Assembly: GCF_000455365.1 (NCBI RefSeq)
Contig: NZ_HG315685.1
Location: 717,794-781,793 of the forward strand
Length of the DNA stretch: 64,000 nt
Direction of reading: 5' to 3'
From: Halopiger djelfimassiliensis
GTDB taxonomy: Archaea; Halobacteriota; Halobacteria; Halobacteriales; Natrialbaceae
Of this stretch, positions 59,725 through 61,587 are shown in pieces. The first letter of the stretch is position 1. Each line of letters opens with the position of its first letter. The notes beneath the pieces are model-generated. The model had not been told where the DNA came from. It worked only from the letters and a program-made list of their open reading frames with translations, and searched no databases. A program made the position numbers and the translations under genes.

Positions 59725-61587
59725 ATGGGTAGCTACGATATCGAACGCTATCTCAACATTCGAAGCGCCTACGGCGCGTCGTTCGGCCCCGACGGCGAGC
59801 GCCTCTCGTTTCTGATGAACACGACCGGAACGGCACAGGTCTGGACGCTCGCGGGGCCGCGCGAGTGGCCGGAACAGCGGACCTTCTACGACGAGCGGGT
59901 GACCTTCGCCTCGTGGTCGCCGGAACGGCCGGAGCTGATCTTCGGCATGGACGAGGGCGGCAACGAGCGGGCGCAACTCCACCGTCTCGACGCCGAGACC
60001 GGCGTGATCGAGAACCTGACGGCGATGCCCGACGCCAAACACCGCTGGGGCGGCTGGAGCCACGACGGCGACCGGTTCGCGTTCACCTCGAACCGACGCG
60101 ACGAGGCGGTGTTCGACATCTACGTTCAGGGCCGCGAGGAAACCGGCGACGACGCTCGGCTCGTCTACGAGGGCGACGGCTGGCTCACGCTGTCGGGCTG
60201 GAGCCCCGACGACTCCCGGCTGCTGGTCTCGCAGGCCTACTCGAACTTCGATCAGGACCTGTACGTGCTCGACCTCGAGACCGAATCGCTCGAGCACCTC
60301 ACGCCCCACGATGGCGACGTTCGCTACCAAAGCGCAAACTGGGCACCCGACGGCGACGGGATCTATCTCGTCACCGACGAGGGCGAGGCGGACACGCTCT
60401 ATCTCGCCTATCTCGACCTCGAGACGGGCGACCTCGAGCCCGTCGTCGACGGCGAGTGGAACGTCGACGGCATCGCGCTGGACGACGAGACCGGCCGGTT
60501 CGTCTACTCGGAAAACGTCGAGGGGTACACCGAGGTGACCGTCGGGGAGTTCGACGCGGCCGATCCGACCGCGTTCGAGACGTTCCCCGAACCCGACCTG
60601 CCGGGCGGCGTCTCCGGCGGCGTGAGTTTCGGCCCCGACGCCGAGCGGTTCGCGCTGTCGACGACCGGCGACGCGGTGAACACGAACGTCTTCGTCGTCG
60701 ACGTCGAAACCGGCGAGGCCGAACGGTGGACCGACGCGCCGACGGCCGGCATTCCGCCGGAATCGTTCGACGAATCGGAACTGGTCCACGTCGAGAGCTT
60801 CGGCGTTGACGGGCGTAGCCCGTCCGCTCGTGGGACTCCCGAGGAGTCCCACGCTGGCCTTTCGGTGCCCGGCTTCTTCACCCTCCCCGACGATCACGAG
60901 CCCGGAAACACGCCCGTGATCGTCGACATCCACGGCGGCCCCGAGAGCCAGCGCCGCCCGTCGTTCTCGAGCGTCAAGCAGTACTTCCTCGATCGGGGCT
61001 ACGCCTACTTCGAACCGAACGTGCGGGGATCGTCGGGGTACGGGGCCGAATACGCGTCGCTCGACGACGTCGAGAAGCGGATGGACTCGGTCGCCGACGT
61101 CAGGGCTTGCGTCGAGTGGCTGCAGGACCACCCCGCGGTCGACCCCGACCGGATCGCCGCTAAGGGCGGCTCCTACGGCGGGTTCATGGTGCTCGCCGCG
61201 CTGACCGAGTATCCGGACCTCTGGGCGGCCGGGATCGACGTCGTCGGCATCGCCAACTTCGTCACCTTCCTCGAGAACACCGGCGACTGGCGGCGCGAAC
61301 TCCGCGAGGCCGAGTACGGCTCGCTCGCCGAGGACCGCGAGTTCCTCGAGGAGGTTTCGCCGATCAACAACATCGAAAACATCGACGCGCCGCTGTTCGT
61401 TCTCCACGGCGAGAACGACCCCCGCGTGCCGGTCGGCGAGGCCGAGCAGATCGCCGAGAAGGCCGAACGGCAGGGCGTCCCCGTCCGGAAACTGATTTTC
61501 GAGGACGAGGGCCACGGCTTCTCGAAGCTCGAGAATCGCATCGAGGCCTACTCGGCGATCGCCGATTTCCTCGACGAACACGTTTGA
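59725..61587 (+). CDS. S9 family (acylaminoacyl-type) peptidase with internal hairpin insert
   Basis: A 620-residue serine peptidase. Residues 1-350 form a beta-propeller of the TolB type (SWSPERPELIFGMDEGGNERAQ and repeats). The C-terminal hydrolase has S483 in GGSYGGFM, D565 in ENDPRVP and H597 in EGHGFS. Residues 360-376 (GVDGRSPSARGTPEESH) come from a 51-bp twin hairpin (60802-60852) inserted at the domain junction, in frame and without stop, so the enzyme may stay active. Such peptidases trim peptides in the cytosol. Start ATG at 59725. Confidence 0.92.
   Translation: MGSYDIERYLNIRSAYGASFGPDGERLSFLMNTTGTAQVWTLAGPREWPEQRTFYDERVTFASWSPERPELIFGMDEGGNERAQLHRLDAETGVIENLTAMPDAKHRWGGWSHDGDRFAFTSNRRDEAVFDIYVQGREETGDDARLVYEGDGWLTLSGWSPDDSRLLVSQAYSNFDQDLYVLDLETESLEHLTPHDGDVRYQSANWAPDGDGIYLVTDEGEADTLYLAYLDLETGDLEPVVDGEWNVDGIALDDETGRFVYSENVEGYTEVTVGEFDAADPTAFETFPEPDLPGGVSGGVSFGPDAERFALSTTGDAVNTNVFVVDVETGEAERWTDAPTAGIPPESFDESELVHVESFGVDGRSPSARGTPEESHAGLSVPGFFTLPDDHEPGNTPVIVDIHGGPESQRRPSFSSVKQYFLDRGYAYFEPNVRGSSGYGAEYASLDDVEKRMDSVADVRACVEWLQDHPAVDPDRIAAKGGSYGGFMVLAALTEYPDLWAAGIDVVGIANFVTFLENTGDWRRELREAEYGSLAEDREFLEEVSPINNIENIDAPLFVLHGENDPRVPVGEAEQIAEKAERQGVPVRKLIFEDEGHGFSKLENRIEAYSAIADFLDEHV
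60802..60852 (+). repeat. 51-bp twin-hairpin element (copy 2), in frame in a peptidase gene
   Basis: Two perfect hairpins: 60808-60824 (GACGGGC/GCCCGTC, loop GTA) and 60830-60852 (GTGGGACTCC with GGAGTCCCAC, loop CGA), separated by 5 bases. Length of 17 codons, a short stem then a longer one, three-base loops, and a shared CTCG-Y-GGGA around the second stem match copy 1 at 63-113. Left and right of it the peptidase frame reads as family sequence (HVESF and GLSVPGFFTLPDD), so it is an insertion. Exact ends are uncertain by 1-2 codons. Confidence 0.75.

Follow-up and report, generated by a model that had tools for sequence, protein, structure and literature searches.

The window analysed in the current work, a stretch of 64,000 nucleotides from Halopiger djelfimassiliensis, carries a gene for a peptidase of the S9 family, within which lies a short unit composed of two consecutive perfect hairpins. 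The reading frame of the gene stays open across this unit, without any stop, and the features of the locus are as follows:

59725..61587, + strand: host gene, S9-family acylaminoacyl/prolyl-oligopeptidase-like peptidase of 620 aa, propeller followed by alpha/beta-hydrolase (PF00326 match at residues 412-619, 1e-48)
60790..60804, + strand: left flank, GTCGAGAGCTTCGGC; homologues with an empty site have TTC GAC/GAT at this place
60805..60855, + strand: twin-hairpin insertion of 51 nt (GTT + hairpin 1 + CGCT + hairpin 2 + CT), coding for residues 361-377, VDGRSPSARGTPEESHA
60808..60824, + strand: hairpin 1, perfect 7-bp stem with GTA loop (GACGGGC GTA GCCCGTC), with covariation
60825..60828, + strand: linker CGCT, conserved in alignment A4 (family version TGCT/TGCC)
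60829..60853, + strand: hairpin 2, perfect 11-bp stem with CGA loop (CGTGGGACTCC CGA GGAGTCCCACG), with covariation

The boundary of the insert is ambiguous by a few nucleotides, and its cleanest placing, being TTC GGC followed by the 51 nt and then by GGC (60805-60855), was chosen by homology; the covariance models described below match the window copy. Folding of the insert region as RNA gave z = -3.8, with 0 of 200 shuffles being as good. The pattern of hairpin 2 with up to 3 mismatches had 0.00 expected occurrences in shuffles of the window, and an exact pattern search of the H. djelfimassiliensis genome returned the window copy alone.

The window protein was aligned with 80 S9 homologues (81 proteins in total), of which 69 lack the segment, 10 are filled at the same place and one (L039) holds a shorter remnant. 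The empty homologues read V-E-S-F-D-G-L-E-V-P-G-F, or near variants thereof, at the insertion site, where 17 additional residues are present in L002, L003, L004, L006 and L050 (as in the window protein) and 15 in L005, L016, L047, L052 and L071. This empty-site comparison establishes the 51-nt unit as a clean in-frame insertion. The codon to its left is GGC in most filled copies, GAT/GAC being retained in L050, L052 and L071, and this GGC is probably derived, given that empty homologues have GAC/GAT. In an AlphaFold model (38 alignment rows; mean pLDDT 81.7) confidence drops below 50 exactly at residues 361-377, which fall between strands 352-357 and 380-386, at the junction of the propeller and the catalytic domain; the low pLDDT is partly expected because the segment is present in few alignment rows. 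The inserted peptide is inferred to be mostly neutral for the enzyme, and its translation into the mature protein is likewise an inference, drawn from open frames and coding composition only; the peptides spanning the insert would be VESF...VDGRSPSAR and GTPEESHAGLSVPGFF.

The original prediction, made from the sequence alone, had placed a translated twin hairpin without a stop at 60802-60852, adding residues 360-376 in a tolerant linker between the propeller and the catalytic domain. The open frame held, with the coordinates shifted 3 nt to the right; the domain location was borne out by the AlphaFold model and insertion into a tolerant linker by the homologue alignment and pLDDT. An alignment of S9 homologues had been named in advance as a check, to be failed if most homologues had an equal-length unrelated loop or if the segment were a conserved part of the family, and neither was the case. 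The claim that the window contains a second 51-bp copy failed, the covariance model detecting no second copy of the family there. Only one further perfect twin hairpin in the window is of comparable strength, a 43-nt intergenic one at 67-109 (GCGGGATCGAAGATCCCGC gaggtac GCAAAGCTTCGCTTTGC), which does not match the family model and lies upstream of two ORFs, one small and one TnpB-like; it is possible that this was the ‘first copy’ to which the prediction alluded.

The window unit probably belongs to a family of non-autonomous palindromic elements, very short in length, that extends across the haloarchaea. The plan of the family comprises GTC, a 7-bp hairpin, a TGCT-type linker, an 8- or 11-bp hairpin and CT (consensus GTCGnCGG..., tail CTG, in alignment A4), with a length of mostly 45 or 51 bp, so that each in-frame copy adds 15-17 residues; the stem of hairpin 2 has 8 bp in the commoner 45-nt form, versus 11 bp in the window copy. 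The flank consensus is CGNC / CGACG, with the insertion point between a GNC-type trinucleotide and G. Perfect GNA triloops are enriched (19 and 21 of 46 copies), and were dropped as an argument for a family hallmark since they are not universal.

A first covariance model (R1) detected the unit in 39 of 61 Natrialbaceae genomes, and also elsewhere in S9 genes, at residues ~142 and ~325; a further S9 copy lies at residue ~243 in locus L213 of genome G258. A second model (R2; E<=1e-7, only 25 candidates scored per genome) scored 160 of 242 haloarchaeal genomes as positive, in 55 of 74 genera. In a phylum-wide draw at E<=1e-5, 18 of 24 haloarchaeal genomes were positive and 0 of 124 non-haloarchaeal genomes of the same phylum matched the family model; as base composition differs between haloarchaea and the others, this draw represents a specificity check and not proof of absence. 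The family is dispersed across many unrelated genes and genera, and most copies sit in ordinary protein genes without other transposon sequence. Genome G258 gave 87 matches when both strands are counted, corresponding to roughly 50 distinct places. In the H. djelfimassiliensis genome no more than three copies score E below 1e-3, namely the window copy, L230 and L231, the latter two in what we take to be a ribonucleotide-reductase-like gene and purD, respectively (read from sequence, no family search). A structure-only twin-hairpin scan of 680 kb yielded 11 matches, including 5 site-C copies, where controls averaged 2; it was too blunt, and covariance models were used instead. Viral contigs gave no exact match to one canonical form of the unit, which is a narrow test, and Rfam gave no relevant match to the unit at E up to 1 and none above the gathering score.

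The behaviour of the unit within genes was assessed by scoring left and right flanks separately for reading frame by GC3-GC2. Among 103 copies examined, 71 have clear coding flanks and all 71 preserve the frame across the unit, with the qualification that the sample is biased to copies similar to the coding ones found first; among the copies without clear coding flanks are match lengths of 49 and 51 nt. The unit is found in both orientations relative to its host genes, reading V-D-G-x-x-P-S-A-R in phase 0 when forward and D-S-E-x-x-S-S-x-S-R-T-Q-S-G-D in one single phase when reverse. Relative to own-genome homologues, clean gaps of about 14-17 residues were seen in about 10 unrelated proteins, namely aminotransferases, an ABC transporter, a cobyrinate-synthase-like protein, a Cys/Met metabolism enzyme, an SSP411-like protein, an aldehyde dehydrogenase, TrpE, a nicotinate-phosphoribosyltransferase-like protein and an aconitase-family protein, and most orthologues tested are without the segment. 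These names are what we take the proteins to be, with Pfam support for several of them; by Pfam, 9 of 10 host fragments each match a different family. For an AOR-family enzyme, the own-genome homologue L235 has a short ADGQG remnant where L143 has the full unit, which may reflect decay of the unit by partial deletion.

Both stems of the S9 unit vary on their two sides together across 11 site-C copies. In alignment A4, which comprises 46 diverse copies, double changes occur in 13 of 15 pairs and 98.3% of cells are paired, as compared to at most 42% in all slid controls, and about 4 of 690 cells are G-U. The stems thus show Watson-Crick covariation. Selection acting on an RNA is generally expected to go by way of G-U intermediates. 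When templates are switched during DNA replication, Watson-Crick compensations arise instantaneously (PMC8794818). Because there is hardly any G-U and template switching gives the same compensations, the covariation is taken as evidence for a DNA palindrome and not as proof of RNA selection, and upkeep of a DNA hairpin by template switching appears at least as well supported as RNA selection for explaining the perfect stems. The prediction had read compensatory pairing as an argument for selection on structure: the pairing held but does not suffice by itself for that inference, near-pure Watson-Crick pairing also being expected from template-switch homogenisation. Its proposal that the element is generally a source of new protein segments held on the family census and on in-frame copies in unrelated proteins (translation itself being inferred), and the GRSP...GTPEES-like inserts that it expected at different sites of other haloarchaeal proteins were found.

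In a quick tree of S9 proteins, of which 28 inner branches are weakly supported, the 11 filled rows require 11 changes. The window row is sister to two unfilled Natrinema (support 99), and L004 (99) and L003/L050 with L023 (97) also stand beside close unfilled relatives. The insert is 96-98% identical among the window copy, L002 and L006, whose upstream flanks are 84-88% identical, and exchange of the insert cannot be separated from constraint here because 51 nt is short. Similarly, the derived GGC codon and a close sequence are common to many of the filled copies in Natrialbaceae, so that repeated insertion cannot be told from exchange of filled alleles or from repeated loss. Each species is represented in the collections by a single genome, and no movement was observed.

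The unit also undergoes tandem amplification: arrays of 45-nt units exist, and histidine kinases of genomes G064 and G067 carry 3-4 in-frame units at the N-box (L250 1420-1700 and L258 1480-1700; units SVEHGSTSSRTESGD...), the stems of which differ by compensated paired changes. Copies at N-box-like sites of different histidine-kinase genes (L171 1587-1633, L223 1510-1556, L225 1532-1578) have one hairpin arm that repeats the target. Over all copies, left flanks agree with the 3’ arm of hairpin 2 at 6.14 of 12 positions, versus 5.74 in shuffled pairings (p about 0.001); a long target-site duplication, seen in a subset only, was rejected as a general rule. Between genes, chains in which 3-6 hairpins are separated by TGCC/CTGT spacers were observed at L201, L224, L227, L228, L251, L253 and L254, representing modular arrays beyond the twin unit. 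Separately, six identical twin-hairpin copies lie beside IS-like ends in G072 (L262-L267).

Taken as a whole, the data are probably best explained by a family of non-autonomous mobile palindromic elements. According to this model, copies would move as single-stranded hairpins, probably via replication forks (lagging strand), the moving being done by an enzyme supplied in trans, or by replication/repair itself; the mover has not been identified. The stems would stay perfect through intra-hairpin template switching, and genic copies would survive if the frame is kept and a tolerant loop is hit, each adding a hydrophilic segment of 15-17 residues. On gene presence alone, a Y1 transposase (IS200-type TnpA) as simple mover is unsupported, its occurrence not following copy number. 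The only Y1 transposase match of the H. djelfimassiliensis genome (C5:161833-162189) lies ~1 kb from the unit of L230 (C5:161500-165000).

Among the alternatives, the inserts could be ends of IS200/IS605 (TnpB, IS1341-type) transposons, that is, ultra-short PATE-like relics moved by TnpA. Several non-coding copies do lie just downstream of TnpB-like ORFs or in the loop of a transposon right-end hairpin, CCTCGCC^...TTTACGGCGAGG (L151, L154, L168, L179, L183, L184), G072 has identical copies beside IS-like ends, and in Haloquadratum PATEs trimmed to 52 bp are presumed to be mobilised (PMC3119063). Against this, copy number does not follow the presence of Y1_Tnp genes: at least 14 copies occur in each of G064, G069 and G158 without any Y1_Tnp match, whereas G072 has 10 Y1_Tnp matches (most with stops) and no unit at E<=1e-7, only 8 weaker IS-end copies. 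Nor do the copies in ordinary protein genes, which are the majority, have transposon sequence around them, and in the IS cases, among them the units in right-end hairpin loops of IS1341-type (TnpB) transposons (L168 1599-1647, L179 1527-1575, L183 1598-1646, L184 1565-1613), the unit interrupts the standard hairpin, so that the IS looks like a target. We consider this alternative unlikely; TnpB transposons are more plausibly targets of the unit, although an origin from them is not excluded. It is also improbable that no mobile element is involved and that palindromes are born locally by template switching, resembling each other through haloarchaeal base/codon composition. The near-perfect Watson-Crick stems, the documented template-switch mechanism (PMC8794818), the copies of histidine-kinase type in which one arm duplicates or mirrors the target (L171, L223, L225) and the similarity of left flanks to hairpin 2 favour local birth, but that similarity is small overall, TGCT linkers, the 45/51 length and loop/stem sequences are common to non-homologous genes and genera, and the phylum sample gave no match beyond haloarchaea.

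Two further explanations were considered. An S9 segment of ancient origin, never inserted but precisely deleted on many occasions, would account for the one site common to filled copies of Natrialbaceae, Halalkalicoccus, Halorubrum and QS_9 and for the partial remnants in L039 and the L143 homologue. This is improbable given that empty homologues have GAC/GAT and not the GGC of most filled copies, that units of the same kind are present in other genes and at other positions in S9, and that the unit at this site lacks long flanking direct repeats by which a precise deletion could be guided. Selection in S9 and other transcripts for a functional RNA element, be it an mRNA structure or a processing site, has in its favour the strong predicted fold and conserved pairing, yet it is very unlikely in view of the occurrence in both orientations relative to host genes, the near absence of G-U pairs, the failure of Rfam to give any relevant match (E up to 1) and the erratic presence among close relatives. 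Finally, a bolder reading, also unlikely, is that a twin-hairpin single strand is inserted class-wide and its stems rewritten from the target or by template switching; if true, new covarying in-frame peptide segments would arise without a dedicated transposase, recurring independently at the same codons across lineages.

Coding palindromic elements were previously known mainly from Rickettsia and Wolbachia, with one report from a methanogen, and no earlier description of the present elements in haloarchaea was found in the literature searched (most subscription journals being outside the search). The present family is a much shorter twin-hairpin version distributed through an entire class of archaea, one genome holding roughly 50 copies, by which genes of core enzymes gain peptides (S9 peptidase, TrpE, a valyl-tRNA synthetase-like protein, an aconitase-family enzyme, histidine kinases, ribonucleotide reductase and PurD). 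It becomes directly testable how short indels in haloarchaeal proteins originate, and the family lends itself, as a natural system, to studying the maintenance of perfect palindromes.

Several known systems resemble the mobile palindromic family favoured here. The Haloquadratum PATEs and SMRs are likewise short haloarchaeal elements that lack a transposase and make no target duplication, SMR-A inserting into IS605 end palindromes (PMC3119063). PATEs, however, are near-terminal IS605-type palindromes with the core deleted, whereas some of our units lie within IS ends and most have no IS sequence around them; SMRs measure ~80-110 bp and have terminal inverted repeats (SMR-A ~110 bp), as opposed to 45-51 nt with two internal hairpins, so that the unit does not qualify as SMR-A. 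In-frame peptide inserts are not described for either in the relevant passages of PMC3119063. CGTC/GTAG REPs and REP dimers, of which the CGTC type is without a dedicated transposase (PMC3733652), are also small palindromes that form dimers and are in some cases intragenic, but they are bacterial, and the CGTC type is defined by a CGTC end tag, an 8-9 bp stem starting A-T and a CCA tail, a combination not seen in the haloarchaeal family.

Rickettsia palindromic elements (RPE) and Wolbachia palindromic elements are short palindromic repeats in frame in many unrelated protein genes (PMC2229807, PMC3733652), the likeness being an in-frame palindromic insert that is tolerated by the host protein. 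The haloarchaeal unit is RPE-like in kind, since it is a repeated palindromic unit in frame in several unrelated protein genes. It is not an RPE proper, understood as a single long stem-loop of 100-150 bp in Rickettsia (RPEs measuring 105-146 bp), for it spans 45-51 bp, has two hairpins with freely covarying stems and occurs class-wide in haloarchaea. The palindromic repetitive elements with coding potential of Methanocaldococcus jannaschii (Suyama et al. 2005, cited in PMC2229807) are archaeal palindromic repeats fused into protein genes as well; they belong to another lineage, and the likeness is one of kind only, without sequence comparison. Fungal mitochondrial double-hairpin elements, which consist of two consecutive GC-rich hairpins of tens of bp, are potentially mobile and occur in intergenic regions and the rnl gene (PMC10085805), share the two consecutive hairpins and the variable stems with pairing kept, homology not being claimed; they differ in being organellar and mostly intergenic, the host of our unit being an archaeon. 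By analogy, RPEs and the M. jannaschii coding palindromes are the closest known systems in kind, and the mitochondrial double-hairpin elements the closest in anatomy.
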